From a virus: a DNA stretch of 22,450 nucleotides. The translations under genes were made by a program, and so were the position numbers. Shown piece by piece: positions 528-20,796 of this stretch. Location: IMG/VR virus record IMGVR_UViG_3300036791_000343, positions 1-22,450 of that record; one strand, given 5' to 3'. Every line of letters starts with the position of its first letter. Positions within the stretch are counted from its first letter, which is position 1. The notes beneath the pieces are model-generated. The model made no database searches and had not been told where the DNA came from. It saw nothing but the letters and a program-made list of their open reading frames with translations.

Positions 528-1820
528 TTAGTAGCCCGAAGGAACTGTCAGACCGCTGATGTACGTGATCGACGCCGGGTTGTTGCTGTACAGCTGCCAT
601 GAGGCAACGATGTAAGCAAGTGTGCTGCCACCGAATCCACCGGACGCACCGCGTACCAAGAAATAACGGTTGCCGTTGTCGTCCAGCATGAATGTGCAGG
701 GATGAAACTCCGCTCTGCACCAGAACTCCATGTTATTGAAGTCGATGCGAGTCTTATCCCAGTTGTAGGACTCTTTAACAGGTGCCCCCGCCAGACGCAT
801 ATTGTCATCGAAGTAAAGGTCCAGTCCTTCCTCCTTGTTCTCCTTGTTGATAACAATGCTAAGCTGGCCAAGCTCTTCGTATGCCTGTTTCTGACAAGGA
901 TGCATCCATGCAAAGAGTTTCTTCCCACGGAGTTTCAGTCCAAGCCTGTCTCCAATTTTGTTAATGGCAAGCCTTGCCATCGGTAGGGCCAATGGCCCGC
1001 CCGCAATAACTTGATTGGATCGAATTTCCGGCGTGGTTGCACGATTGAATCCTAGCCAAGTTCCAACACTACTTGAGCTGGCATGGTACGGAACTCCTAA
1101 CAGCGACGTTGGCGGCGTTGTAGTGATTCCCTGCGAAACGATGAGATCACCGACTTGAGGCGCCGTATCTGGAGCATTTGCCGTCGGGGACTGGATTTGG
1201 ATAGTCTTATTAGGACCATCGTAGTACGTAATAGGATACGAACCAGCATTTCCAAGACCATGGCCGGTTCGCTTAGTCGCTAGCGTAGGGTCCCAGATGT
1301 CAATTTCCTGAGCGTAACGCATGAGACGTGCACCGAATCCGTCTGTCGTTAACGTGTAAGTATCAACGCCACCTGCGGAGGCTACGGTGGTGATGGTACC
1401 TAAAACACCGTTACCGGCTGTCATACAGAGTGAATCCTGTGCACGTCTCATCTCAGCCATGCCGTTGGCTAAGTCCCTTTTGAGTGTGTTGACCGTCGAT
1501 TTCCTTGTTGTATCCACGCCCCACCGACGCCGCATGGTCCATTCCATACGACCGATAAAGTCAACCGTGTTGACCTCAGCCTTATCGTACGTCGCCATGT
1601 CGCCACGTCCGGCATCGCCGCCGTCTGGATTCCACTGACCAGTTTTGATACCGGGCCGCAGTTCCAGTGGTACGCGCATTGCGATGGATGAAACAATTTC
1701 GGCAGGCCGTTTGTCAACTTGTGAGAAGAATGTATCATCGCGCTCATAAAGGAGTGGGATGGTAGGTTCGACCCGTTCTAATTCAGCAGCAATTACTTGA
1801 TTCTCAGACCCTGCTGGCAT
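528..1820 (-). CDS. Major capsid protein-like, 430 aa
   Basis: The 430-aa product lies directly after the scaffold-like gene in a portal, scaffold, capsid order, which is the main argument for the call. The sequence has no signal peptide or membrane segment. It contains a basic stretch near residues 95-115 (WTMRRRWGVDTTRKSTVNTL), typical beta-rich Gly/Thr segments in the middle, and an aromatic C-terminus ending in SGLTVPSGY. Its length fits HK97-fold capsid proteins without a fused protease, and no separate prohead protease was recognised in the window. The ATG at 1820 has AGGAG about ten bases upstream in the short gap after the scaffold stop. Expression is expected to be late and high. The assignment rests on synteny and general character rather than on a diagnostic motif. 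Confidence 0.8.
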   Translation of the reverse strand: MPAGSENQVIAAELERVEPTIPLLYERDDTFFSQVDKRPAEIVSSIAMRVPLELRPGIKTGQWNPDGGDAGRGDMATYDKAEVNTVDFIGRMEWTMRRRWGVDTTRKSTVNTLKRDLANGMAEMRRAQDSLCMTAGNGVLGTITTVASAGGVDTYTLTTDGFGARLMRYAQEIDIWDPTLATKRTGHGLGNAGSYPITYYDGPNKTIQIQSPTANAPDTAPQVGDLIVSQGITTTPPTSLLGVPYHASSSSVGTWLGFNRATTPEIRSNQVIAGGPLALPMARLAINKIGDRLGLKLRGKKLFAWMHPCQKQAYEELGQLSIVINKENKEEGLDLYFDDNMRLAGAPVKESYNWDKTRIDFNNMEFWCRAEFHPCTFMLDDNGNRYFLVRGASGGFGGSTLAYIVASWQLYSNNPASITYISGLTVPSGY

Positions 1821-1825
1821 TTTGT

Positions 1826-3037
1826 TTAACTCCTATATTTGATGTTTCCACTCAGGATATCCTCATCAGATGTTTTGGAATAGTCAATAGCTCTTGTGCT
1901 GTCAACTCTTCCATTACCGTGTTGAGACACCCGTCCGTTTAGTAGTTCCTTGCTTTTGGGTGTGACTTTTTCAATTCTCTTGACAGTCCTGTCCGCACTT
2001 TTAGCGCGGACTCCCATCGCTTCGGCAACTACTTTACGTCTGACAGTAGGAATTAAATCCTTAGCGCGCGCAAGGTACGCATTTATTATCTTACGCTTCC
2101 TGCCGTCATCATAGCCTTCACGTTTAGCTCTGGCCCAGCGTGATTTCTGTGAATTCATCCAAGCTGTGTCATGGGAAAGTTCTTCGGCTACCTGCATCAT
2201 GACATCCTTGATAACTGTTTTACGGAGAAACGGTGTCATTGCACCGTTGGGATCGAGTCCTTTTCGGATGGACGTCTGTATATCCCGCGTAATTGAATCG
2301 TTCACACTGCTAACAGCAGTGTTGAATGCCGTTGTAACTTGCTCGTTTGTCTCAGTGCTCTTAGGCGCACTCTTAACAAAGTTCTTTGATCCGTCGGCGG
2401 CTCCAGCATCACCAAAGATAATGTCTGCAATAAGCTTTGCAGCTTCTTGGTAAGCCTCACCTTCTTCTTTCTTCCCACGGCCAATTAACGTTGTACCTTG
2501 CTCGAATGCGTATCTGAGCACATTCTGAATAGGCTTGGCAACAACGTCGCCATACGTATTCGGATCTTTCTTGTGTAGAGCATCCAAGAAGTTTAAGGAG
2601 AAACGCTCAAACGATGCCTTGTCTGTGCTATGCACCGCATCGAGAATCAGCTCAGGATTTCCTTCCAGTGCACTTTCTCTCAAAGATACATAAGCGTCAA
2701 CATCCGCAAGGGATTCCTTAGCGTCTTCAATTGTTGGAAATAATCTTTCGTATTCCTGCCCTTTGAAGAAGGGCTGTTTAAGCTCAGGAAAATCCTTGAA
2801 GAGGTTGGGATACTTTTCCTTGACCGCAGCGTAGGTGGTCTTAAGTGGTGAAGTATCTAATACTTCTTCCTCTGCATCTGACGCAGCTGCGTCAGACTCT
2901 TCGTCTACGTCATCGACGTTGTCATCAGACTTGTTACCTTTACCTTCATCTTCATCCTCATAGTCATCAGGAAGGACAGAGTCCAACAACTTAATGTCGT
3001 CTTCGTTGTCTGCTATGGGTGTTTTATCATCAGGCAT
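1826..3037 (-). CDS. Scaffolding-like protein, 403 aa, acidic N-terminus
   Basis: Residues 8-60 are extremely acidic (for example NEDDIKLLDSVLPDDYEDED and several further Asp/Glu runs), followed by a mostly helical middle, and a very basic tail from about residue 300 (SRWARAKREGYDDGRKRKII, then TVRRKV and DRTVKRIEK). An acidic N-terminus, helical body and basic capsid-binding tail are typical of phage scaffolds, and the gene sits directly upstream of the capsid-like gene. The ATG at 3037 overlaps the end of the ATP-grasp gene by 8 nt; its Shine-Dalgarno GAGGAG lies inside that gene, so translation is probably coupled. A 20-bp palindrome (2877-2896) is embedded in the acidic region, encoding the SDAAASDAE area. 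No protease motif was seen. Confidence 0.75.
   Translation of the reverse strand: MPDDKTPIADNEDDIKLLDSVLPDDYEDEDEGKGNKSDDNVDDVDEESDAAASDAEEEVLDTSPLKTTYAAVKEKYPNLFKDFPELKQPFFKGQEYERLFPTIEDAKESLADVDAYVSLRESALEGNPELILDAVHSTDKASFERFSLNFLDALHKKDPNTYGDVVAKPIQNVLRYAFEQGTTLIGRGKKEEGEAYQEAAKLIADIIFGDAGAADGSKNFVKSAPKSTETNEQVTTAFNTAVSSVNDSITRDIQTSIRKGLDPNGAMTPFLRKTVIKDVMMQVAEELSHDTAWMNSQKSRWARAKREGYDDGRKRKIINAYLARAKDLIPTVRRKVVAEAMGVRAKSADRTVKRIEKVTPKSKELLNGRVSQHGNGRVDSTRAIDYSKTSDEDILSGNIKYRS
2877..2896. repeat. Dispersed palindrome, copy 1 (inside scaffold gene)
   Basis: TCTGACGCAGCTGCGTCAGA is a perfect 20-bp palindrome without spacer. It shares the core CGCA(A/G)CTGCG with the palindromes at 9504, 10310, 14196 and 14257. 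Confidence 0.85.
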
Positions 3038-4286
3038 ACTCGCTAGTCTCCTCTACCATGCTGGACAAGACTGTGTCCAAATCAGTTCGGTATTGTAGGT
3101 CTGGAACATTTACAAACTCAAGGACATCGTAGCAATCACTTACTGCAATCTTGCAGTCGGAATCCATGCCAAGCGTGATGCCTAGCACTCCTGTTCCACT
3201 GGAGTGCACAAGCTGACCGTCCTTGCAAAGGACTTCGTAGAAGTAGATTTCATCCTCTACGCTTTCAAACCCTTGAATGGGAATCCCTTCATTGGGTGAG
3301 AACTTCTCAGAATCCTTACCCTTCAAAAGCTCCGCCGGGTAGGGAGGAATACTAAACCTCACCGACGCCGCGTATTCTTCAACCATTGGCATTTTCTTTA
3401 GCTGGCCACTTAACAAATCAGAGAAGAACTCTCCAACGTCGCCTTTAATCAGACTGAATAATGCTGGCGTGGCGTCGTATCCCATACGTGGCGTCCACTC
3501 TAACCCGTAAACGCCCCTATCATTTACAACGGCGTTGAGATCAATCTGGCCGACGTAGCCATTCTTCACGCAGTACTCTTCCATGCGGGCTATGCCAGCA
3601 CTCATCACTTGAGTTTCATCGAGCCAAGTGACGTTGCCAGAACATCCAGTGGCTGGTCCAAGATCTTTGTCGAGAAACTTTTTGACTTCAACAGTGTGAT
3701 TTAATGGACGTATAAACTGTTTGCCGTCGCAGAACGCTTCAGAACTGACCACAACTCCCTTAATGAACTCCTGAAGGATAAAGTCATCTATATTCTTACC
3801 GAATTTAGATTCGACAAAACGCATATAGGCTATCAATTCTTCAGCATTTTCACTGACGTAAGTGAGCTTGCACGGCATACTTCCGTTTGGTTTAAATACC
3901 AATTTGCCATCGTACTTGCTGACGTACTCGATGCCTTCTTTGAAGTCTCTAAATTTCTTCGTCTCAGGAATTTTGATTCCTGATTTCTTCATGACATCAA
4001 AACCAAAGTCACGGTCACATTCTAATTGATCCATGAGGGCAGATGAACCGTAGACTTTATGTCCCAAACGTCGGAAGTTGTCGGCAACACTACCGTTTCC
4101 TGACATATCGAAGATGATAAGTGCATCAGATTCAGGAACCGGCATATTGACTTTAGGAAGAAGTCCATCCCACACATCCTTATAAATTCTATCATGGATG
4201 TACAATGAAACGTCATTACCCTCATCTTGAATTCTAGACAAAAGCCCGGCACCCTCTCCGCACTCTGAGTACATGAAATACTTCAT
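3030..4286 (-). CDS. ATP-grasp ligase, PurD (GAR synthetase)-like, 418 aa
   Basis: ATP-grasp enzymes join a carboxylate to an amine through an acyl-phosphate. Visible hallmarks in PurD order: a pre-grasp Rossmann-like start (MKYFMYSECGEGAGLL); GHKVYGSSALMDQLECDRDF at 75-94, like the segment before the grasp domain; the lysine strand LVFKPNGSMPCK at 129-140; LQEFIKGVVVSSEAF at 171-185, matching the usual QE(F/Y)..G.E.S; and metal-binding IDLNAV (248-253) and GLEWTPRMGYD (261-271). In PurD the last motif is normally E-F-N-x-R-F-G-D-P; here E263 and R267 remain but the Asn is Thr265 and DPE is changed to YDA. The substrate may therefore not be phosphoribosylamine. No other purine gene is nearby. 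The gene overlaps HNH (4 nt) and scaffold (8 nt), so it is a late gene. Activity and substrate are inference; the fold call is strong. Confidence 0.85.
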   Translation of the reverse strand: MKYFMYSECGEGAGLLSRIQDEGNDVSLYIHDRIYKDVWDGLLPKVNMPVPESDALIIFDMSGNGSVADNFRRLGHKVYGSSALMDQLECDRDFGFDVMKKSGIKIPETKKFRDFKEGIEYVSKYDGKLVFKPNGSMPCKLTYVSENAEELIAYMRFVESKFGKNIDDFILQEFIKGVVVSSEAFCDGKQFIRPLNHTVEVKKFLDKDLGPATGCSGNVTWLDETQVMSAGIARMEEYCVKNGYVGQIDLNAVVNDRGVYGLEWTPRMGYDATPALFSLIKGDVGEFFSDLLSGQLKKMPMVEEYAASVRFSIPPYPAELLKGKDSEKFSPNEGIPIQGFESVEDEIYFYEVLCKDGQLVHSSGTGVLGITLGMDSDCKIAVSDCYDVLEFVNVPDLQYRTDLDTVLSSMVEETSEYA

Positions 4287-4702
4287 TTTTCGTCTTTAAA
4301 GCCATCCATGACTTGCTTTTCAATGGACTCCAAAAATCTTTGATCTCTAACTGCTTTAGGCGGCCTGCCCAAATTTCCCATTGCTGCAATGTCTTTTGTA
4401 TTTTGTTTATGATCGCCCAGATACAAATGATCTGGATTAAAGCAGTTTGGAATTGTACATGGGGGCTTATGAAGTACCAAAATGGCGTTATCTAAACTGA
4501 TTTCTTTGTACAAACGGTAAGCCACTCGATGAACTAGGAATGCTACACCGTCGATACGTATCTGTCCATACCCATGATTGTTAGTAACACCCAGCCACAA
4601 CCAATGGCCATCCTCAGTTATTTTTCGATTGAATTCCAGTCGCTGCTGAACAGTTCCATAACGAATGTGACGAAATTCCGCTGGTAGCGCAAAAGGTCTC
4701 AT
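4283..4702 (-). CDS. HNH endonuclease, 139 aa (HNH_3-like)
   Basis: The small protein shows the phage HNH layout: W34-x-W and a GYG motif (NNHGYGQIRIDG, 41-52), an AHR-like HRVAY (58-62), then LH at 77-78, a C82/C87 pair, CFNPDHL at 87-93 with N89 and H92, and N101. H78, N89 and H92 are the expected catalytic and metal residues. Free-standing members of this family are usually homing or nicking endonucleases, and some help terminase. It overlaps its neighbours on both sides by 4 nt (ATGA), so it is fully integrated in the operon rather than a loose insertion. The C-terminus (LGRPPKAVRDQRF) could be a small DNA-binding segment. Confidence 0.88.
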   Translation of the reverse strand: MRPFALPAEFRHIRYGTVQQRLEFNRKITEDGHWLWLGVTNNHGYGQIRIDGVAFLVHRVAYRLYKEISLDNAILVLHKPPCTIPNCFNPDHLYLGDHKQNTKDIAAMGNLGRPPKAVRDQRFLESIEKQVMDGFKDEK

Positions 4703-4890
4703 ACCTTATCCTTGTTCCAGACCTTATCCACGCCATTGTACCAACGTCCACAAGCACACCCTGCCCAGTGGCTGTTTACTCCGATGCTAAGTTGCTTGCC
4801 GCATCCTGGGCAGTCGATGAAGTACCAAGCGGCAATTTCTTCTGGTCCGTAAGATAATTCAAAATGAAAAGATTGTTGTTGTGCTTGCAC
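4699..4890 (-). CDS. Small zinc-ribbon-like protein, 63 aa
   Basis: The GTG start at 4890 has a textbook AAGGAG six bases upstream, stronger than for any nearby ATG. The product has CPGCGKQLSIG followed after about 13 residues by a second Cys cluster, GCACGRWY, giving a plausible four-Cys zinc knuckle (CxxC...CxC). The N-terminus is Gln-rich (MQAQQQSFHF). It lies between the two-helix membrane protein and the HNH gene and overlaps the latter by 4 nt. No family recognised. A nucleic-acid or protein adaptor role is possible but is inference from the Cys pattern only. Confidence 0.75.
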   Translation of the reverse strand: MQAQQQSFHFELSYGPEEIAAWYFIDCPGCGKQLSIGVNSHWAGCACGRWYNGVDKVWNKDKV

Positions 4891-4891
4891 G

Positions 4892-5077
4892 TTATCTCCT
4901 TACAGGTATGGTGTATGACAGGAAGCCAAAGGCTTGCAGGACCAAAAGAAATGCAACGACGATCACAAGCACGTTGACCAGCGTTTTGATCGGTTGGGCC
5001 ATCGGAACGTATGTGTTCAGCAACCACAGGCCGATTCCGATTAGAACTAGCAGAACTATTAAGCTTACTAGTGGCAT
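4892..5077 (-). CDS. Two-helix inner-membrane protein, 61 aa (Thivi_2564-like)
   Basis: Two hydrophobic segments (about residues 4-22 and 34-53) are separated by NTYVPMAQPIKTL and followed by a short basic tail (PVRR). The start MPLVSLIVLLVLIGIGLWLL-NTY and the whole two-helix layout resemble the small bacterial and phage membrane family named Thivi_2564, as I recall it. The ATG directly follows the portal stop (TAAATG) and uses the AGGAG inside the portal end, so it is co-expressed with head genes. A holin or other envelope role is possible given the topology, but no lysis enzyme is visible beside it, so I do not call it a holin. Confidence 0.75.
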   Translation of the reverse strand: MPLVSLIVLLVLIGIGLWLLNTYVPMAQPIKTLVNVLVIVVAFLLVLQAFGFLSYTIPVRR

Positions 5078-7381
5078 TTATTCGGGTGCTCCTTCTGCAG
5101 ACGGCGGCTCCACGCCTGGAGGAGCTGTATGTTGCATCGTTAGTGTTTGCATCATTAATGCATTTTGATGCAGTTTCATATGAAGGATACAATTCAAATA
5201 TCCTGCAGGGTTCGTTTTTTTCATGTCAAGTCCTATAGGATCAACAAGCAGAGACTTGATGGTTGCAATGTGGACGGCATGGTCGTCAACATCCGGGTCT
5301 ATGGGAACGGAAGGGTTCATCATATCTATAGGCTGCGAGTTCGATAACTCATCAATTTCCATCGCCTGTTTATAGCGTTGCGCTTCTCCAGGGATCTTGA
5401 ACTCGTTTAGCGCAAGGTTGTCTTGTAGGTTGCGAGCATTCTCTGGTGTGTAAAGTGCAGAGTTGATGAACGGATTGTTGAGTTCGATGAACTTCATCAA
5501 CAAAGCATTCTTCTGAATAGAGCTGACAGGAAAAGACTCACTGCTCTCGCTCTCCACGCCGCCTGTTTTGCCCAGAAGTTCGCTTTGCCGAATCCAAACG
5601 TTAACATACTTCCCGTCCTGAAACTGTGCAAATTTCTGGTCTTCAACCACCGTTTCAGCATAAATATCAACTGCTCCGCCGACTGTGCGTTTCCACCAGT
5701 CTACAGCGTACTTTTGAACGATCATAAGTCGCTGAAGAGCCATTGCCCGTGATTGTTGATATTCGCTAAATGTCCTACTCTTTCCTTCAGACGGTCCTCC
5801 GTATATGGATGGAAAACTTCCTACAAGGAACTGTCCAGCCTGGTCAAGCTGGTTCTTGAACATCGGAACTTCTTTGGAGAGTGTTGTCCTTTGAAGAGTA
5901 TGGAAAGACGCTGCGAGGGGCTGTCCCTGCTTCGCCTTAGCCTTGTACATGTAACCGGGAGCGCTTTCAGTCTTACCGTACTGATCGAAATTAAGTACAT
6001 CAGCTTCTGCGAAGGAGGCAGGATTGCTATGATCAATTGTGTCCATTGTAAGATTAGCAAGCTGATTCTCCATGTCATTGACAGAGATTAATGGCTTCCC
6101 GATCGGATCGGAGTGGATATAAGTGCTCAATCCAGCCTGTCCAATTTCCCACTTCTTATCCAGACTCTCGTCTTCAGGCTGCGTAACATCGTTGTCTACC
6201 AGCGTGTCTAGCTTTCCAACGAAGGTGCAATGTACGCCACTTGGGTACCTCTTAAATAGGTCAATGCGAACCTTTTCATCGTCAATTAACCAATAACGAG
6301 ACGGTCTGAACCATGCCTGAGTTATTGTACTGAGATCCCGTGTGTTCATTCCTGGATCGTCAGGGTAGAGGTATCCTGTGCGGGAGAACCTATTAACGGA
6401 TTCAATGGTGTCCGAATCAATTGTCTTTGTGAGTTCAGACTCCTTGAAGTCCGGTTGAAGAGTCGCCTTAATGTTACTTTTTGAACTGTCGAGGAATAAT
6501 AGAAGATAATCGCACTCATCCTGATTGGTCGCATGGTATGGTATCTTGAACGACAATGGGCCAAATGTGCGTAACTTAACCCTTGTTTTAGACAAAACCT
6601 TAGTGCCAGTTTGTACAGGAACCTGCTCAGATCCTTCCTCCTCTTTCATCTCTGATCCGCATTGTGGACAAATATTTGTTGCTGGCGCGGCGTATTCCTG
6701 CAGTCCGACAGGACTAGAAGCTAAAGCTTGTACATCGCGTTCAGGATTAACACCGCCATCACCACCCATGCTGTCAGGTACAGCAGCATCTCCAGCCTCT
6801 TGTTCATATCCGCACGTCGGGCAAACCTTCTTACTAGTCGGACGTTCTTCCATGCCATATGCAGGAACTGTGTACGTGCCATATTTAAGATCGGCATCCT
6901 TATATCTGTATGACGCAACGATTCCTCCGTTCCAAAGGAAAAACATACCTTTCAAATAAATCATCGCAGCATTATTGTGTCTCTGAACAAGGTCGCCAAT
7001 CTTAGATTTAGTCCGTGCTGTCAACAAATCCAGGCTATCGTCTGCATCATCGGGTACCCATCGCAACGTAGGTAACTGTGCTGAGAGTGCACTGATAATA
7101 GCCTCACCATGCGCCCTATAAATATTGAGGACGTAATCGTAATAAGGCCCGTTACCTTCGTCGTCATCTTCCAGGAAATGTGACTTACGAGTGTTTATGT
7201 CTTCCGTCGAAAGCCAAGTCTGATCCCGTTCAGACCAGAACAAGTACTGCACACCATGCCAGTATTCCTCAAGTTTCTTCCATTCCTTGATCTGCGCCTT
7301 GTAAATCTCAAAGTCTTCCCGTTTACATTCACGGAGAATGTCTTCGAGAGCCTTTTTGATTTTCTCAGGTATCTTTGGCAT
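5078..7381 (-). CDS. Portal-like protein, 767 aa, with zinc-ribbon insertion
   Basis: The large product sits between the terminase-side genes and the scaffold/capsid genes, as expected for the dodecameric portal through which DNA is packaged. The N-terminus is charged and helical (PEKIKKALEDILRECK). Residues 80-110 (YYDYVLNIYRAHGEAI ... LPTLRWVP) and the later AMALQRLMIVQKYAVDWWKR helix resemble P22-type (large) portals. An unusual feature is an insertion at about 185-245 carrying two CxxC pairs (C187/C190 and C238/C241, in CPTCG and CPQCG), a zinc ribbon split by roughly 47 Gly/Pro/Ala-rich residues. The C-terminus (TMQHTAPPGVEPPSAEGAPE) is Pro-rich. The ATG at 7381 has no clear Shine-Dalgarno, so coupling to the upstream 57-aa gene is likely. 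Confidence 0.82.
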   Translation of the reverse strand: MPKIPEKIKKALEDILRECKREDFEIYKAQIKEWKKLEEYWHGVQYLFWSERDQTWLSTEDINTRKSHFLEDDDEGNGPYYDYVLNIYRAHGEAIISALSAQLPTLRWVPDDADDSLDLLTARTKSKIGDLVQRHNNAAMIYLKGMFFLWNGGIVASYRYKDADLKYGTYTVPAYGMEERPTSKKVCPTCGYEQEAGDAAVPDSMGGDGGVNPERDVQALASSPVGLQEYAAPATNICPQCGSEMKEEEGSEQVPVQTGTKVLSKTRVKLRTFGPLSFKIPYHATNQDECDYLLLFLDSSKSNIKATLQPDFKESELTKTIDSDTIESVNRFSRTGYLYPDDPGMNTRDLSTITQAWFRPSRYWLIDDEKVRIDLFKRYPSGVHCTFVGKLDTLVDNDVTQPEDESLDKKWEIGQAGLSTYIHSDPIGKPLISVNDMENQLANLTMDTIDHSNPASFAEADVLNFDQYGKTESAPGYMYKAKAKQGQPLAASFHTLQRTTLSKEVPMFKNQLDQAGQFLVGSFPSIYGGPSEGKSRTFSEYQQSRAMALQRLMIVQKYAVDWWKRTVGGAVDIYAETVVEDQKFAQFQDGKYVNVWIRQSELLGKTGGVESESSESFPVSSIQKNALLMKFIELNNPFINSALYTPENARNLQDNLALNEFKIPGEAQRYKQAMEIDELSNSQPIDMMNPSVPIDPDVDDHAVHIATIKSLLVDPIGLDMKKTNPAGYLNCILHMKLHQNALMMQTLTMQHTAPPGVEPPSAEGAPE

Positions 7382-7812: not shown

Positions 7813-9480
7813 TCAATAACGTCGCGGTGAGTCAATGGTTCTTCCAACTCTGCGCCTCCCCATCCGAACGCGGCCTGCGGAATGCAGCTGCGCGGTGTGT
7901 TCAATTTTGTCCATTTTCATGTAGTATGAAGTCATGTCGCCACTGTTCTGCAACTGCAACACAGCCTTTTCAACCTTCATAGCAGTTTCGTACTCACCCA
8001 TGCCGCCATCAAGATAACGTTGGCAAGCCTCGATGCCATAACGTGTCTCGTCGTAGGGATCATCACCGGGAAACTCCGCTACGTCCTCGTTGGGCTTGCC
8101 TTTCGTGTTGGCGGCGTAAACACAGTGTGGAATGGTTTCAACAGTCTTCGGGCACATGCCTTCAAAGATTTGAAACTTAGGGAGAAACCCTTCTGGCTTT
8201 TCTGGTTCATGCAGTGCCTTGTATTCCTCTAGTGCTTTATCGCCGTACATGCGCTTGATCTTCAACGCCGTGTCAACGTTGTAACCTTCTTGTGGCACGT
8301 ATCTTGGCGGCCTGGGAATAACTCTAATGTATTCCTGCATCAGAATTTTCCCGCCTATGCGATCGTTGTTAGCCTTCCTAGCTGGCCTGCCAAATGCCTC
8401 TGCAAACTCCTGAGCTATAAGACCTGTGCCCCTCTCCTGCCATGCCGACGGGTCCAAGACTACGTCCGTTAATTCTATGTCGGACGTCATACGCCGGATA
8501 TCGGTTGCCCAAGTGCTCACTTTCGTCTTAACGCACGTATGCTCTTTGGTCTTGTAAATTTTGGCGGGGTGTACTTCAGATGGAACAGGGTTTATTCTGT
8601 AAAGACCTGCGCAGGTCATTGCAGCGTATCCCCAGTCTATGGATAAAACTGAGGGCCAATAATACGGCACGGTGAATGGCTGAACAACATGCGTATGCTC
8701 TGAGAAATCATCAAAGACTTGGCCCTCAAAGGAGTCCCAACGGCCCTCAAGCTTGGCCGCTCTTTCACCCGCCGGCAGCGCTGCGAGCCTGCTTAAATAA
8801 TTCGGGTCAGAATCCATCAAGTAGATGTTATCTGTTGCCCGCGACGGAATGAAGATGGCATCGACTTGACGCTCTACACGTTTGCCCTTCTCATCGTCGT
8901 AGAAGACCTTGCGGCGGATTATTTTATATCCATCTTGGCAAGGCTTAATAAACCGATTATATACCCAAGTATGACCAATATTACCAGGGTTAGTGCCTGA
9001 CCTAACGATAGCGGGTAGTCGATTGTCCGACGAACGAACTCGTGTGAACGCGATGTAAATGTACTGGTATTCTGTAAAGGATGTGAGCTCGTCGAAGGCG
9101 GCGTAGTTGTATTGAGAAGTGTCGTACTTCTTGACGTCCTTCTCATTCTCACAATGGCCAAACTGGACCACTGCTCCGCTTGGAAAGGTCCATCGCTTTT
9201 TTGTGTCGTTGTAGGTAGCTCCACAGGGTCCATAGAACTCCGGTGCGCGGAGAATGATTTCAGCCTCAAGCTCAGGGTAGGTTCTCCTTAAGATAATGCC
9301 TTTGAATCGTGGATGGAGATGAAACTGTCTTGCTATAGGCATCATTAACAAGGTTTCAGACTTGCCGCCACCGGCTGCTCCGCCATACATTGCCTCAAAA
9401 ATGCTGTCAGGCAGAGACAAGAAATCCGCCTGCCTCTTATGAGGTTGCCAAGTTTTGATCGGGCTTGCTAATGAATCCAT
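7813..9480 (-). CDS. terL: Terminase large subunit, 555 aa
   Basis: This is the ATPase-nuclease motor that cuts concatemers and pumps DNA into the prohead. The N-terminal ATPase shows Walker A GGAAGGGKS (33-41), Walker B YAAFDE with D130/E131, and the coupling motif SGTNPGN (161-167). The RNase H-like nuclease has D282 in SIDWGY, D343 in VVLDPS, and a third acidic site near GDDPYDE (472-478). Length is normal. I start at the ATG at 9480 because the first residues match the adaptor region (MDSLASPIKTWQPHKRQADF). The longer TTG start at 9513 would lie inside a strong hairpin (9494-9535) and has no ribosome site. The ribosome site for 9480 is weak (AGG, six bases upstream). Confidence 0.97.
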   Translation of the reverse strand: MDSLASPIKTWQPHKRQADFLSLPDSIFEAMYGGAAGGGKSETLLMMPIARQFHLHPRFKGIILRRTYPELEAEIILRAPEFYGPCGATYNDTKKRWTFPSGAVVQFGHCENEKDVKKYDTSQYNYAAFDELTSFTEYQYIYIAFTRVRSSDNRLPAIVRSGTNPGNIGHTWVYNRFIKPCQDGYKIIRRKVFYDDEKGKRVERQVDAIFIPSRATDNIYLMDSDPNYLSRLAALPAGERAAKLEGRWDSFEGQVFDDFSEHTHVVQPFTVPYYWPSVLSIDWGYAAMTCAGLYRINPVPSEVHPAKIYKTKEHTCVKTKVSTWATDIRRMTSDIELTDVVLDPSAWQERGTGLIAQEFAEAFGRPARKANNDRIGGKILMQEYIRVIPRPPRYVPQEGYNVDTALKIKRMYGDKALEEYKALHEPEKPEGFLPKFQIFEGMCPKTVETIPHCVYAANTKGKPNEDVAEFPGDDPYDETRYGIEACQRYLDGGMGEYETAMKVEKAVLQLQNSGDMTSYYMKMDKIEHTAQLHSAGRVRMGRRRVGRTIDSPRRY

Positions 9481-9493
9481 TCCATGCCTGGGA

Positions 9494-9535
9494 GGACAGA
9501 CTATCTGGCGCAACTGCGCCAGAGGCAGTCTGTCC
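9494..9535 (-). promoter_or_regulatory. Two-tier hairpin just upstream of the terminase start
   Basis: Outer arms GGACAGACT / AGTCTGTCC (9494-9502, 9527-9535) enclose the palindrome TCTGGCGCA-AC-TGCGCCAGA (9504-9523). On the minus strand it ends 13 nt before the terL ATG and is not followed by Ts, so it is more likely a translation or RNA-processing element than a terminator. The inner part is copy 2 of the dispersed palindrome family. Confidence 0.8.
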
Positions 9536-9565: not shown

Positions 9566-9952
9566 CTACGACCCGACAGTCAGTTGGGTGCCGTGGAATC
9601 TAAAGAAGGGCTTGCCCGGCAGAGGACTGACTGGCATGAGAACCGTTGCTTGCTGTGGAAGAATGTCTGTAATGGCAACGATTGTCGGGTTGGTCGGCTG
9701 CACCGTTACTCCTAACCCATGCGTGTCTGTTGGACTGACCGCAATGACTGTTCCAACCAACTTGACTGTCAGTCCAACCGTGATCGGCGTCCCAACTGAA
9801 TCAACCACTGCCGGAGGTCCGGCTAGTGGGTTTACTATTGGATCTGCAGGCTGCACAGTTGGCGCATCTGCTTCCGTTACAACTGATTCTGTGCTTGTAC
9901 TGAACACAGTTGGATCGGGTTCAGGCTGCGGACTGTAAACGCTTGTACTCAT
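9566..9952 (-). CDS. Secondary virion protein with the shared VG..V small-barrel module, 128 aa
   Basis: I start at the ATG at 9952, with AAAGGA seven bases upstream, and not at the TTG at 9967. Residues 1-45 are low-complexity (Pro/Thr/Val/Ala, for example EPDPTVFSTSTESVVTEADA). From about residue 50 the protein carries VVDSVGTPITVGLTVKLVG, then PTDTH and VTVQPTNP, which aligns with the N-terminus of the big fibre and with the 85-aa protein at 13836. The pattern GTxIxVGxxVKLxGxVxxVxPxDxH is beta-rich and resembles KOW/SH3-like barrels. The ATG lies 12 nt after the stop of the 89-aa gene. Likely a virion component or attachment module; exact role unknown. Confidence 0.65.
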   Translation of the reverse strand: MSTSVYSPQPEPDPTVFSTSTESVVTEADAPTVQPADPIVNPLAGPPAVVDSVGTPITVGLTVKLVGTVIAVSPTDTHGLGVTVQPTNPTIVAITDILPQQATVLMPVSPLPGKPFFRFHGTQLTVGS

Positions 9953-9963
9953 GCTAATTCCTT

Positions 9964-10233
9964 TCAAATTGATCTTATCGAAAACTCTATGGATCTTGCT
10001 TCGTTTTCCACGCTGCCGGTATGCGTGATGCGAAGTGTAACTTCCACACGCATTTCATCTGTGTACTGGTCTATGACAACGTTGACTACCCTACGCAAAT
10101 GTTGCATTAGACCGTTGTCTTCGTCCGTGTTGAATACGACAGCATCTATTTTCTTGTTGAACTTGTCAATGACAGTGGATGGCTTACCAATGACACTGAC
10201 GTAAAATGGCTTCTTTGCAATGTCTATGCTCAT
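9964..10233 (-). CDS. Unknown late protein, 89 aa
   Basis: The ATG at 10233 follows AAAGGACAGGATTGC, a good ribosome site, 18 nt downstream of the T-run of the terminator at 10251-10306. It is therefore the first gene after that terminator, read either by read-through or from a promoter I could not identify. The product starts MSIDIAKKPFYVSVIGKP and alternates hydrophobic and charged residues (VVNVVIDQYTDEMRVEVTLR), suggesting a compact alpha/beta fold. No Cys, no membrane segment, no family recognised. Confidence 0.65.
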   Translation of the reverse strand: MSIDIAKKPFYVSVIGKPSTVIDKFNKKIDAVVFNTDEDNGLMQHLRRVVNVVIDQYTDEMRVEVTLRITHTGSVENEARSIEFSIRSI

Positions 10234-10648: not shown

Positions 10649-11152
10649 CTACCTTTTGGCTGTCGGCTGCGTCGCCGGCGTAGGTACGGGAACCCAAACC
10701 CAAACCCAACCGTTTAGTTCAGGAAAGTAAGCCATTGCCCAGAATCCAGGAGTTTCACCGCCTGCCGATGTAGGCGGTAGGTTAATTGGCTGCGACGGCG
10801 TACCAGTAACTCCACCTGGCGGTTTTCCCGGAGGCGTGGGCCAAACTGTTGGTGGAGGTTCCGGTGGCAGAACAATCGGGTGCGTGGGTATCGGAGGCTG
10901 ACCTCCCGGCGCGATGGGATGAGCAGGATATCCCGGAGGTGGCCATACTCCTGGGGGCAGACCTCCCGGTGCAATAGGATGCGTGGGAAATCCTTCTCCA
11001 GCGCCTCCCCAAATTCCCGGAGGATAATGAATAGGATGCTCCGGGTGACCGGGACTTGGCCAAACTCCAGGTGGCGGATTGTAAATAGGATGTTCCGGGT
11101 GTTCACCACCGCCACCGACTGGAACTATCCAGGCTAAAACGGGTTTATTCAT
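10649..11152 (-). CDS. Pro/Gly-rich repeat protein, 167 aa
   Basis: It is built from degenerate repeats of the type HPxHPIxxPPGxWP: GEHPEHPIYNPPPGVWPSPG, GHPEHPIHYPPGIW, FPTHPIAPGGLPPGVWPPPG, YPAHPIAPGG and so on. The C-terminus is aromatic: GFWAMAYFPELNGWVWVWVP. Such a sequence cannot form a normal globular core in the repeat part and is probably extended and surface-exposed. I recall similar proteins beside fibre genes of uncultured phages, without known function. It directly follows the large fibre gene, so a fibre-tip, chaperone or adhesion role is reasonable inference. Ribosome site AAAGG about ten bases upstream of the ATG at 11152. Confidence 0.7.
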   Translation of the reverse strand: MNKPVLAWIVPVGGGGEHPEHPIYNPPPGVWPSPGHPEHPIHYPPGIWGGAGEGFPTHPIAPGGLPPGVWPPPGYPAHPIAPGGQPPIPTHPIVLPPEPPPTVWPTPPGKPPGGVTGTPSQPINLPPTSAGGETPGFWAMAYFPELNGWVWVWVPVPTPATQPTAKR

Positions 11153-11188
11153 TTTTAATACCTTTTCCTTTCAGTCTTCAAACTTTTA

Positions 11189-13687
11189 TTACGCAGCAAA
11201 CTTTACCCGGTTGCTATCTGCCGGGTCGTACCAAAGCTGTTTCGATCCGGCTGCCGGTGCCACGGATGGAAGATTTGTTATGGAGATGTTTCCGCCTGCT
11301 CCGGTCAAACTGACTGGCCCGGCCACTGTCAGCGCGGTTCCGGAATCCGGGGCGTTGATAAAGACGTTACCTGCGGAAAGAATCTGCACGCGGGTTTTCG
11401 GGCTGGCGATGTTGGTCTGGAAACTCAGAATGTCGGTTTGTAATTCAATCTGGCTGCCGGCGCCGGCGCTGCCAATTACAATGAGTGCCTGTCCGCTTAT
11501 TACAAGATTCTGAAGTTCGCATCCGATACGGGCAGAAGCGGTTCCCTGAGTGATGCAATACAGGTGCTGTCCGTTGGAAGCGGCTATTTGCAGTCCGGAC
11601 CAACCTGCCGAATCCGCCTGGGTGATGTTGAGGGCAATCGTGCTGCCTGGGGCCGATGGAATGGTTACGGCGGGGGCGGTCACGCTGTGAAACACGGCAT
11701 CGCCTGCGCCGGTGATCGTCGCAGCGTTCGAGGGCGTCGCAAAGGCGAGGGCTGCGCCCGCCGCGGTCGATGCGATCTCTCCTGCCACCGTGAGCGCGGT
11801 GCCGGAATCCGGGGCGTTGATGGTCACGTTGCCTGCGGAATTGACGGTCATGCGAGTACTGGGGGCCGGGCCGGTCTGAAAAAAAAGGGTTCCTGTGGGA
11901 GATGGGTTTAAGATTGCATTTGTGGGATCCAGCGTAAGCCCGGGGCCACTGGCGACGTTCACAATAACATAAGTTCCCGGACTTCCGGTAAGAGTGCAAA
12001 CGCCGTTGGGCTGAATGGATAACTCGAAATCTTTTCCTGCGGAATTTACCAGGTCGAGACCAGCCCGATTTGACGCATTGCTTTGAGTAATTATTAGTTG
12101 GTAGTTTGGGTTCGCAGAAGTGGTGGAAATTACGCCAGGTCCAGCCGTTGTGACGCTGTGAAATACGGCGTCGCCTGCGCCGGTGATGGTGGCCGCGTTG
12201 GACGGCGTGGCAAAGGCGAGGGCTGCGCCGCTGGCTGCGCTCACGATAGTGCCGGCGGGGAGGATTTGTGCCTTAACAGTGTCGTTGAATAAGAAATCAA
12301 TGCCTAAGAGGCTGCCAGTACCAGGCGTTGGTCCCGTGTATTCTCCAAACTGGAGTCTGGTGATCGTGTTGGCTGGGGTGCTTCCCTGTCCACCCCAAAG
12401 ATATATACCCGCAGAAGTCGGGGCAAGCCAGCCGGAAGCAACTACCAGTGCATCCGGTGATGTCACCCCATTATTCAGTATGATGTAAGAGGCATTTCCT
12501 TCGGCGGTAGGGGATAAATATAGAGCAGTATCGTGGGTCGGTGCGTTCGCTTTTATGTAAAGAGCACCACCGCCGTTATTGAGAGTCACTCCCGTCGCCG
12601 GTACACCAACTATCACGCTGTGGAACGTGGCATCTCCTGCGCCGGTGATCGTAGCAGTATTAGAAGGCGTGGCAAAGGCTAACGCTGCACCACTAACTAT
12701 GCTAGTAATCGCCCCAACATTCAACAGCTTCTTACTGTTTGCATTGACGTCTTGCAGCCAAGGAGTCTGTACGCCGCCGCCTGCTGTTATGCTTATTCCA
12801 TTTACTCTAAAGGAACCAGTTATATTGATGTCACCGAAAGCATCTACGGCGTAGGCAGGGGCAACGTTGCCACTCAAACCAAGCCATCCCGAGCTGGTTA
12901 GAACGCCTTTGTTGCCTGCAAGGAATAATGATTGAATATTAGTGAGGGAATGATTGGCGGCGTCTATGTTGCTGCCCCAAGGAGTTTGTCCGAGAACATT
13001 GACGCCATTTACTTGGAAGGAACCAGTGACATTGACTGTAGTTGCTGTGACCATGCTTGCTGCAACTGTTGCAACGTTGGTAAGAGTGAACCCACCACCG
13101 TTAATATTTTGTTGCCACGGCGTTTGCGTTTGAATAGGAACGCCGTTGACTAAATAGTTGCCTGTGACGTTAACGTTTCCTGTAACGGCTACTGGACCTG
13201 AGGAAATGCTTGCTACGTTGGTGAGTGTGAAGTTGGCTGCGTTGACGTTCTGTAACCAAGGCGATTGGCCAGGCAATGCTACGCCATTAACACGAAATGC
13301 TCCAGTAATGTTAACATCGCCCGTAACAGTAACGGGGCCAGTGGTAATGCTTGCAACGTTGTAAAGGTTTTTGTTGCCGCCGTCAATGTCAGTAACCCAA
13401 GGACTTTGGGACATGCCATTGCCTCCTGTACCCAAGCCCACAACCAACATGGCTGGCGAGATATTAACTGGGTTAGCGTTTACTGTAGCCTGTGGGATTC
13501 CGTTCTTGATGTCGTTCAGAATGCCCATATTGACTTTGGGCACAACTGGGTACGTGGGGGTTACACTGACTTCTCCGTAGTGAGTGTCTGTTGGTGCAAC
13601 TGAAGTAACTAATCCTGTGAAGCGCACCTGTGCGCCAACCGCTATGGGAGTCCCTAATGCATCGACCAGATTTGTTGCGCCTGCCAT
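11189..13687 (-). CDS. Large tail fibre/appendage protein, 832 aa
   Basis: Residues 1-80 are the shared VG..V module (NLVDALGTPIAVGAQVRFTG ... PTDTHYGEV), probably a virion-anchoring domain. Residues 95 to about 330 hold five repeats of roughly 47 residues beginning (S/T)PW and containing LxNVxxI, VTGxVNxTG and FxVNGV, one with a longer insert. The distal half carries three near-identical copies of SGAALAFATPSNAATITGAG plus FHSV, two copies of INAPDSGTALTVAG, and ends ITNLPSVAPAAGSKQLWYDP-ADSNRVKFAA, a familiar fibre C-terminus. No S74 autoprotease motif was seen. Such Thr/Val/Gly/Asn repeats form trimeric beta-shafts that bind the host surface. The distal third is visibly richer in GC than the proximal repeats, consistent with module exchange. 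Confidence 0.85.
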   Translation of the reverse strand: MAGATNLVDALGTPIAVGAQVRFTGLVTSVAPTDTHYGEVSVTPTYPVVPKVNMGILNDIKNGIPQATVNANPVNISPAMLVVGLGTGGNGMSQSPWVTDIDGGNKNLYNVASITTGPVTVTGDVNITGAFRVNGVALPGQSPWLQNVNAANFTLTNVASISSGPVAVTGNVNVTGNYLVNGVPIQTQTPWQQNINGGGFTLTNVATVAASMVTATTVNVTGSFQVNGVNVLGQTPWGSNIDAANHSLTNIQSLFLAGNKGVLTSSGWLGLSGNVAPAYAVDAFGDINITGSFRVNGISITAGGGVQTPWLQDVNANSKKLLNVGAITSIVSGAALAFATPSNTATITGAGDATFHSVIVGVPATGVTLNNGGGALYIKANAPTHDTALYLSPTAEGNASYIILNNGVTSPDALVVASGWLAPTSAGIYLWGGQGSTPANTITRLQFGEYTGPTPGTGSLLGIDFLFNDTVKAQILPAGTIVSAASGAALAFATPSNAATITGAGDAVFHSVTTAGPGVISTTSANPNYQLIITQSNASNRAGLDLVNSAGKDFELSIQPNGVCTLTGSPGTYVIVNVASGPGLTLDPTNAILNPSPTGTLFFQTGPAPSTRMTVNSAGNVTINAPDSGTALTVAGEIASTAAGAALAFATPSNAATITGAGDAVFHSVTAPAVTIPSAPGSTIALNITQADSAGWSGLQIAASNGQHLYCITQGTASARIGCELQNLVISGQALIVIGSAGAGSQIELQTDILSFQTNIASPKTRVQILSAGNVFINAPDSGTALTVAGPVSLTGAGGNISITNLPSVAPAAGSKQLWYDPADSNRVKFAA
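11685..12693 (-). repeat. Three long DNA-level repeats in the distal fibre
   Basis: Segments near 11685-11769, 12157-12239 and 12616-12693 encode SGAALAFATPSNxATITGAG-D-xFHSV and are also very similar as DNA (for example the shared CCTGCGCCGGTGAT). A second pair near 11325-11370 and 11790-11840 shares CCGGAATCCGGGGCGTTGAT. Long direct repeats of this kind permit recombination between fibre modules. Confidence 0.8.
12697..13405 (-). repeat. Five (S/T)PW repeats of the proximal fibre shaft
   Basis: Repeat units start at fibre residues 95, 142, 189, 235 and about 308. The first three are 47, 47 and 46 residues, the fourth has an insert (LFLAGNKGVLTSSGWLGLSG region), and the fifth leads into the distal half. 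Confidence 0.8.
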
Positions 13688-13835: not shown

Positions 13836-14093
13836 TCAAGCACCAACCAAAAGCATTTTGGGTGCAACATTGACCGTTGTGCAAGCAAGGGTTGGAGACG
13901 GAACTCCGCCTGCGATGTCATTCACAAGGCTGATATTCGTCACAGGAATCCCTGCGGGGTTGTTCAACGTTACGACGCACTCGCCGAAATGGGCATCGAA
14001 GGCATTGATTGCAGTTACGACGCCGACTAACTTTACTGTGGCGCCGACGTTTATGACTGTTCCGATGGCATCGACGATACTTGTTGCTGGCAT
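13836..14093 (-). CDS. Stand-alone VG..V small-barrel module protein, 85 aa
   Basis: The whole protein is the module also found at the fibre N-terminus and in the 128-aa protein at 9566: SIVDAIGTVINVGATVKLVG, then a loop AFDAHFGECVVTLNNP, then VTNISLVNDIAGGVP, ending TVNVAPKMLLVGA. The order of invariant positions (VDxxGTxIxVGxxVKLxGxV, DxH, V..xNP) is the same in all three. The fibre copy even ends alike (VNISPAMLVVG). The ATG at 14093 has AAGGAAAAAG upstream. Inference: a multimeric virion module, perhaps binding the same partner as the fibre base. Confidence 0.65.
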   Translation of the reverse strand: MPATSIVDAIGTVINVGATVKLVGVVTAINAFDAHFGECVVTLNNPAGIPVTNISLVNDIAGGVPSPTLACTTVNVAPKMLLVGA

Positions 14094-17846: not shown

Positions 17847-17916
17847 CACATGGGGATCTATACTCCCCTCCCACACACCCACGGTGGTTCGCGGGGGAGA
17901 GGGGTTCGTTTCTTTT

Positions 17917-17947
<31 letters not shown>

Positions 17948-17982
17948 TAAATCAACTACTTACCAACCTAACCCAAAACCCT

Positions 17983-19215: not shown

Positions 19216-20796
19216 TTGATACTCAAACAACATTGCAGTTATTGCAAAGAGAAGAAGGAAGTGACCCGCGTTCTAAAGGATGAAAACGGTCTAACGCGTT
19301 TCTTCGCATGTGGTCACATGCAGCGCGTTAACTACGTTAAGCCATCCGACTTCGCCAATATTACCTCGTCGGACAACAAAACGCCATACCCATTCCAACT
19401 GGAAGGCGCTGCATTTGCGGCAAACGCAAACTTTAGAGCATTGATTGCAGACGAATGCGGTCTTGGCAAGACGGTTCAGGGGCTTTCATTGCTCTCCCGA
19501 CCGGAGACCTTGCCTGCCTTAGTTATATGCAAGGCAGGCTTGCGTATGCAATGGGTACGCGAGACGCACCGTTGGATTGCACAGCACGGTCAAGTTATAA
19601 TAAGCGAAAAGGAACCCAATCTTGGTCTTAAAGTTGCTTTCATTAGCATGGATTTGTTACATCGCTTCAAAGATATGGAGGCGTTTGTAAAGCGCTTCGG
19701 CTTTAAAACCATAATCTTAGACGAATGCCAAGCGATTAAGAACCACGATAGCAAACGCACGAATGCCATCCGTGCGTTATCCTCACACATTCCCTACTTT
19801 ATAGCGTTATCCGGCACGCCGATCAAGAACCATGCTGGAGAGTACTTCCCAATCCTCAACATTCTCCGCCCTGATCTATTCCCAACCTTGCGTGGCTTCT
19901 ACAACGACTGGACAGATTCTTACTTCAACGGCTATTCAATGAAGACCGCTGGGCTACGACCCGGCAGGGAAGAGTTATTCCAGACTTTTACAAAAGATTT
20001 CATTATCCGCCGCACAAAGTCAGAAGTCCTACCGCAACTTCCCAAAGTAGCGCGGCAGCCCCTGTTCAGCGAGTTGGGCAAGGATGTCGAAAAGGCTTAC
20101 TTAAAAGAGTTAGACGAGTTCGAGGATTACTACAATTCAGGCAAGGATGCCGGGAATCCTATAGCTCGTGGAGCTACTTTAATTGGATTCTTCTCCCGCA
20201 TGCGCCACCTTACCGGTCTCAGCAAGATAGACCCATGCGTAGCATGGACGGAAGAGTTCTTAATGAGCACTTCTAAGAAGCTGGTCATATTTGTCCATCA
20301 CAAAGACGTAGCTACCATTCTGAAAGAAAAGCTAAGGCTGTTGACTTTATCGTGGCCGTCTGAATACGGTGCAGAGCCTCTAACCTTAGAAGCGGAACAT
20401 GACATGCGTCAGCGTCAGGATGCCATCGACCAGTTTCAGTCTTCTAACAGCCGTATTCTGATAGCCTCAACTCTCGCCGCAGGTGAGGGAGTGGATGGCA
20501 TACAGAATGTGTGCAGTGACATAGTAATTCTAGAGCGGCAATGGAATCCGGCCAACGAAGAGCAGGTGGAGGGACGCATCGAACGCATGGGTCAGAATGC
20601 TTCCAACTTAACATCAACGTACATGATTGCAACGGGCACAATCGACGAGTTCTTTGCAGAGATTGTAGAGCGCAAGAGAGTATACGTGGCCAACACCTTA
20701 GACGGCGTGGTCGGTGCTAAATGGAACGAGAATAGCATCATGAAAGAACTTGCTGAGTCTCTCTCACTGAACGGTCGGAAACGTTGGAGCTGGTAA
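19216..20796 (+). CDS. SNF2-type superfamily 2 helicase/translocase, 526 aa
   Basis: The protein moves on DNA using ATP. Motif I is ADECGLGKT (78-86), motif II LDECQ (168-172, DEAH-type box as DECQ), motif III ALSGTP (197-202). Motif V/VI at the end is ASTLAAGEGVDG followed by EEQVEGRIERMGQ (448-460), with the arginine-finger pair R454/R457. An N-terminal zinc knuckle (C7/C10, with C32/H34 in ACGH) precedes the helicase core, unusual for the compact phage forms. The start is TTG at 19216 with AAAAGGA seven bases upstream, and the next Met (residue 35) falls inside the zinc knuckle. In phages such proteins act in replication, recombination or remodelling of bound proteins. Confidence 0.93.
   Translation: MILKQHCSYCKEKKEVTRVLKDENGLTRFFACGHMQRVNYVKPSDFANITSSDNKTPYPFQLEGAAFAANANFRALIADECGLGKTVQGLSLLSRPETLPALVICKAGLRMQWVRETHRWIAQHGQVIISEKEPNLGLKVAFISMDLLHRFKDMEAFVKRFGFKTIILDECQAIKNHDSKRTNAIRALSSHIPYFIALSGTPIKNHAGEYFPILNILRPDLFPTLRGFYNDWTDSYFNGYSMKTAGLRPGREELFQTFTKDFIIRRTKSEVLPQLPKVARQPLFSELGKDVEKAYLKELDEFEDYYNSGKDAGNPIARGATLIGFFSRMRHLTGLSKIDPCVAWTEEFLMSTSKKLVIFVHHKDVATILKEKLRLLTLSWPSEYGAEPLTLEAEHDMRQRQDAIDQFQSSNSRILIASTLAAGEGVDGIQNVCSDIVILERQWNPANEEQVEGRIERMGQNASNLTSTYMIATGTIDEFFAEIVERKRVYVANTLDGVVGAKWNENSIMKELAESLSLNGRKRWSW

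Follow-up and report, generated by a model that had tools for sequence, protein, structure and literature searches.

GAR synthetases (GARS), the PurD enzymes (EC 6.3.4.13; TIGR00877, PF01071/PF02843; PDB 2YW2, 2XCL, 1GSO), are the closest solved relatives that searches returned for the phage protein analyzed here. In Aquifex PurD, residues D212, R287, and E292 touch glycine, K143, K214, and E185 are among the ATP contacts, and the experimental PRA-binding residues of GARS are not established (PMC8880213). Two "extra" haloarchaeal PurD-like proteins, rrnAC0307 and Hlac_1553, were set aside as not GARS by Brown et al. (2011) because they lack GARS_N, the sites that bind Mg, and the Asp of PS00184 (PMC3261824). 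On the viral side, a snow-virus paper counts purD as a phage auxiliary metabolic gene, and our literature search for "PurD-like" phage proteins found no paper.

The stretch of DNA analyzed here (the window) is an entire virus record of 22,450 bp, with no further genome beyond it. As the original prediction held, positions 3030–4286 contain an ORF for an ATP-grasp ligase joined to its neighbors by 4- and 8-nt overlaps; it lies on the minus strand, and the plus strand of this interval is full of stops. The stop of the HNH gene and the ligase ATG share 4 nt (GAAAAATGAAG), the ATG of the scaffold-like gene and the ligase stop share 8 nt (GAGTATGCCTGATG), and start/stop overlaps are frequent around the ligase gene. 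The names "scaffold" and "portal" derive from position and composition, since profile searches with both proteins (including PHROGs for the portal) gave no match, whereas the capsid orthologue in the related locus L005 matches the major head protein family phrog_14242. Elsewhere in the window, a long T-rich run at about 17900–17960, read as a Phe stretch in plus-strand ORFs, separates the minus-strand late genes from plus-strand genes, and a SNF2-type helicase (19216–20796, plus strand; PF00176 E 9e-30; phrog_62 E 5.8e-87) belongs to another transcription unit. Three minus-strand ORFs (9566–9967, 11189–13687, and 13836–14093) carry a similar ~80-aa stretch (VDAIGTxIxVGAxVKLVGVVTA...), apparently a duplicated virion-protein module.

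Table. Ligase gene, its conserved residues, and neighboring late genes in the window.
Feature	Position	Strand	Basis and remarks
Major capsid protein	528..1820	-	54% identity to L005 orthologue
Scaffold-like protein	1826..3037	-	Position and acidic N-terminus; orthologue at same place in relatives
PurD-like (non-GARS) ATP-grasp ligase, 418 aa	3030..4286	-	ORF, profiles, model, and residue table
R400-x-D402 C-domain motif	3081..3089	-	Common to GARS (YRxDIG); invariant in all three groups
E263-W-T265-P-R267-M-G269 metal/substrate motif	3480..3500	-	GARS counterpart E-F-N-x-R-x-G-D-P-E
D249	3540..3542	-	Invariant acid at position of GARS Tyr/Phe
E200-V-K202-K203	3678..3689	-	E200 at position of GARS glycine-contacting D212; K202 = K214
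K132, ATP-binding lysine	3891..3893	-	K143 of Aquifex PurD; 25/25 phage, 14/14 cellular, 9/9 GARS
HNH endonuclease	4283..4702	-	phrog_1872 E 5.5e-21; slot position not conserved
Cys-rich (zinc-ribbon-like) protein, 63 aa	4699..4890	-	Slot position not conserved
Two-helix membrane protein, 61 aa	4892..5077	-	Slot position not conserved
Portal-like protein	5078..7381	-	Named by position; 44% identity to L005 orthologue
Terminase large subunit (TerL)	7813..9513	-	phrog_979 E 7e-46

The window protein matches PF01071 (GARS_A) above cut-off (E 2.5e-15) and TIGR00877 (purD) with an E-value of 1.6e-30, yet the 106 bits of the latter match stay far under the curated cut-off of 288 bits; likewise, its GARS_C match lies below cut-off, and GARS_N (PF02844) was matched by none of the 20 family members searched. 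Structure prediction, which had been proposed as a check, yielded an AlphaFold2 model (pLDDT 88, pTM 0.87; 19-sequence input) with the full three-domain GARS fold, its 15 best Foldseek matches in the PDB being all GARS chains (TM 0.7–0.8). These fold matches, together with the invariant K132, K202, and E263, place the protein in the ATP-grasp superfamily, and the anticipated PurD-like character is thus borne out by both profiles and model. PHROGs holds no matching family, and the viral structure library BFVD gave partial ATP-grasp matches (best TMq 0.46) and no full-length one. The companion claim that purine synthesis is not the role was also upheld by the low purD score, by changed residues, and by the tree, where canonical GARS are set apart at 100/100 and the ligase family falls outside their clade; close relatives clustering inside canonical GARS with purine-pathway neighbors, the pattern that would speak against this claim, were not encountered. 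Its position outside GARS, D249, and an ExTxRxG motif assign the window protein to a non-GARS PurD paralogue family of phages and archaea. On sequence grounds, the window ligase and its relatives are not GARS.

To compare active-site residues, we aligned 25 phage and 14 cellular sequences with 9 canonical GARS. K132, K202, E263, R267, G269, R400, and D402 are kept in all three groups, PurD and the ligase thus sharing the K132/K202/E263/R267 positions as well as the C-domain motif. The stretch GLEWTPRMGYD (residues 261–271), originally flagged as departing from the PurD motif, indeed does so, with T265, Y270, and A272 replacing the GARS Asn, Asp, and Glu; D249 similarly replaces Tyr, and the PS00184 pattern R[LF]GDPEx[EQIM] is absent, RMGYDATP standing in its place. 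Position 265 is Thr in every phage and cellular row and Asn in all nine GARS rows, and both D249 and T265 are invariant among all relatives compared. At the GARS D290 position, most rows have Tyr or Trp, and 10 of the 17 carriers in the window's group have Leu. The Aquifex glycine contacts D212, R287, and E292 correspond to E200, R267, and A272 in the window, the Arg alone being retained, and the GARS-typical N-terminal loop residues are gone from the family. Given the PRA-binding residues of GARS being unestablished, the proposal of a changed acceptor is based on this altered loop and on the D290 and E292 losses. Read along with the Aquifex contacts, the residue table indicates an ATP site kept with conservative changes and an altered glycine site and E-x-N metal pair; the predicted metal site with T265 is unusual. 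One residue of the original prediction had to be corrected: position 139, taken for a lysine, is Cys, with K132 and K202 being the lysines conserved at the ATP site.

An IMG/VR scan with the window sequence alone retrieved no relative. A two-row profile based on a distant phage homologue (MW202796, 26% identity) hit 157 IMG/VR contigs, and a 20-row profile revealed that at least 539 contigs encode relatives. The homologue itself, a 443-aa ORF of phage ct2os315 (19950–21281), is not annotated as a CDS in that record. Scanning of bacterial and archaeal genomes gave 147 matches, the best 80 of which are mostly haloarchaeal chromosomes, the others belonging to Nitrososphaerota, Woesearchaeota, Micrarchaeota, Bacteroidales, and Rhodothermia, with some phage-like contigs. 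Loci were taken from the best 80 matches per scan, and statements on genomic position cover this sampled part of the family. In the tree, the cellular paralogues nest within the phage-containing family beside ct2os315-like phages (97/95); several long branches, including a member from an unusual contig of uncertain kind (L026), make deep phage placements unsure.

Chromosomal copies scored about 317–390 bits with the phage profile, versus 60–149 bits for canonical PurDs. Nine genomes carrying the paralogue on a chromosome were examined for purD, and five of them (G005, G014, G012, G009, and G013, from two haloarchaea, one micrarchaeote, one member of the Bacteroidales, and one of the Rhodothermia) also hold a canonical PurD over the purD cut-off, the paralogue scoring 96–107 bits with that profile. 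In the other four, which are small or incomplete (0.9–1.7 Mb; G004, G007, G008, and G011), no canonical PurD was found, so a purine role may be conceivable there. In haloarchaeal genomes, for instance L095, L121, L136, and L154, carotenoid (bacterioruberin-type) genes and a universal stress protein gene are often found no more than several kb from the paralogue. Archaeal neighborhoods were nonetheless discarded as a guide to function: the loci examined, with ORF calls that perform poorly on GC-rich DNA, displayed no clear pathway neighbors, and neither the stress protein, carotenoid, and LOR/SDH-type genes recurring near some haloarchaeal copies nor the peptide transporter, aminotransferase, and M1 peptidase near Nitrososphaerota copies form a consistent operon.

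Relatives of the window's phage were gathered with the capsid as main bait, and the portal–scaffold interval was read in 82 intact loci, with simple ORF picks as gene calls. The scaffold directly follows the portal-like gene in 55 of them, the slot being empty; 11 hold other genes there, and the remaining 16 have the ligase, which in every case is the final same-strand gene ahead of scaffold and capsid (a small opposite-strand ORF called between ligase and scaffold in L198 is probably spurious). In a capsid tree built with a short search, the 17 carriers, counting the window, all belong to a single clade of 24 rows (99), and carrier distribution requires three changes versus 15.7 in shuffles; some contigs in these counts have capsids that are identical or nearly so. 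Pairwise ligase distances track those of both scaffold (Mantel r 0.85) and capsid (r 0.80), with a permutation p of 2e-4, and the pairwise dN/dS of the ligase is 0.01–0.16 where measurable, a sign of purifying selection. Slot, clade, and co-divergence therefore support, for the window's phage group, the idea that ligase, scaffold, and capsid genes travel together, and absence of the ligase gene from all close relatives, named beforehand as contrary evidence, is not what we found. The gene is, however, missing from many near relatives that share this capsid; in three 45–48-kb contigs of the same capsid clade with a ligase-free slot (L201, L203, and L205) it was found nowhere, whereas all 16 carrier records gave a match with the same query. 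In other phage groups, the ligase follows internal-virion-type genes and precedes fiber and lysis genes, and in further ones it comes after small cell-wall hydrolases. These varied late-module positions and the co-divergence indicate an accessory gene that settled in several slots and was then inherited for long. The ligase is, thus, a late accessory gene of variable virion/lysis-region slots, long kept once acquired.

The portal–scaffold interval (L196–L308; window 4283–5077) is an exchangeable slot whose non-empty versions hold fiber-like proteins among others. While the non-purine reading and the scaffold/capsid linkage of the original prediction stood, its conserved zinc-ribbon/HNH/membrane cassette did not: the 16 carrier relatives have none of these three genes in the slot, and HNH genes in L206 and L308/L292 stand upstream of the portal. 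Sec-signal-like starts were scored in 26 of 76 slot genes versus 44 of 1113 elsewhere by a crude, home-made predictor, which makes this a lead and not evidence of the target. In other loci (L006, L329, L343, L349, and L373, among others), Peptidase_M15_4, Tlde1, Hydrolase_2, and lysozyme-like ORFs swap directly upstream of the ligase. In about ten loci, among them L319, L320, L322, L324, L354, L370, and L386, the ligase is preceded by a recurrent ~130-aa protein (cluster c15) that shows a conserved HExxE-like stretch (IHELIEA, LHEFVEA) and matches nothing in Pfam or PHROGs.

Having altered metal ligands as well as a changed donor pocket and acceptor loop, the ligase probably no longer makes GAR. 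We consider it probably a catalytically competent ATP-grasp carboxylate–amine ligase, derived from GARS or sister to them, with changed donor and acceptor, serving as a late accessory enzyme. By analogy with family chemistry, ATP would phosphorylate a carboxylate held by R267/E200, and an amine would attack the resulting acyl phosphate to form an amide, with donor and acceptor other than glycine and PRA. Because the PurD-like C-domain and lid are retained, a small-molecule or carrier-tethered acceptor appears the likeliest, at roughly even chances, and a protein as the direct recipient of an amino acid is distinctly less likely. Late-gene placement and the changed active site together suggest that these phages seem to run an uncharacterised ligation late in infection. 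More tentatively, this widespread PurD-derived family of tailed phages and archaea may perform late amide ligation, for example amino-acid tagging of virion or envelope molecules; if true, phages would thereby encode post-synthetic modification of a new kind.

RimK and TTL enzymes add amino acids or peptides to protein targets, and the phage ligase could similarly place an amino acid or short peptide on a virion protein (fiber, decoration, capsid, or scaffold). Its virion-gene surroundings in every phage group sampled, its co-divergence with capsid and scaffold, and the often fiber-like or secreted-looking slot mates and downstream genes speak for such a role; however, chromosomal paralogues occur in cells outside any phage-like context, the many same-capsid relatives devoid of the gene indicate that it is dispensable for assembly, and the PurD-type ligases with a C-domain that we know of act on small molecules, all of which leaves this a minority reading. 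Slightly less probable still is an envelope ligase that late in infection modifies a precursor of peptidoglycan or of the surface, aiding lysis enzymes or blocking superinfection. In many relatives the ligase directly follows unrelated cell-wall hydrolases (Peptidase_M15_4, Tlde1/YkuD, Hydrolase_2), often with overlapping ends, and it adjoins lysis-like genes in 24 loci versus 7.6 expected. This test is biased, since some seed families were chosen for adjoining the ligase, and within three genes the excess nearly vanishes (32 versus 23.8 expected); moreover, the slot in the window's group contains no recognized lysis gene, and paralogue-bearing haloarchaea have no murein. The lysis link is therefore suggestive, a lead rather than evidence of the target.

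Two other readings are far less probable. That the fold persists as a noncatalytic part of the virion or of its assembly would suit a gene adjoining scaffold or internal virion proteins, but K132, K202, E263, and R267, invariant over phages and cells, are not needed for structure alone, making this very improbable. An auxiliary GAR synthetase raising nucleotide supply is, if anything, even less credible: although purD and GARS domains are the top named matches, the score, the missing R[LF]GDPE core of PS00184, the loss of E292, and the place outside the GARS clade all oppose it, purF was not found in 12 carrier phage records (control genomes gave purF matches), and five paralogue genomes have a PurD of their own. 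Score, tree, residue table, and lack of purF led us to reject the canonical GARS reading; a defense-system family was also dropped, with no PADLOC match. The preferred reading thus remains a ligase with changed substrates.

Although carried by so many viral contigs, the gene has no PHROGs or PADLOC family and no full-length BFVD match. Such genes can be annotated as "purD" auxiliary metabolic genes, and the non-GARS evidence removes a false metabolic claim, pointing instead to an uncharacterised ligation kept under strong selection beside capsid, fiber, and lysis genes, to whose chemistry the archaeal paralogue offers a genetic route. Compared with PurD, the ligase family shares the fold and ATP-grasp domain and differs in its glycine- and metal-site residues, its N-terminal loop, its lack of a GARS_N match, and its carriage by phages with no detected purine-pathway partner gene. 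The haloarchaeal rrnAC0307 and Hlac_1553 apparently belong to this family, as judged from congeners (L121, L137, and L119) with the same altered motif; unlike the phage genes, they are chromosomal. A link to thaumarchaeal mobile elements was rejected, the published report having a PurD gene only as an integration target. The Pseudomonas phages Peetri and Aura also encode a PurD-like domain with a weak purD match (35 bits), but in a 694-aa fusion within a QueC-like gene cluster (Peetri 10921–13005), not among virion genes, and these neighbors suggest a link of the Peetri protein to modified-base synthesis. LUZ24-like phages resemble the window's phage in being small and encoding an ATP-grasp enzyme, which differs in its 291-aa length and in residing in an early-gene module with an amidoligase and a glutamine amidotransferase (PMC3890496).
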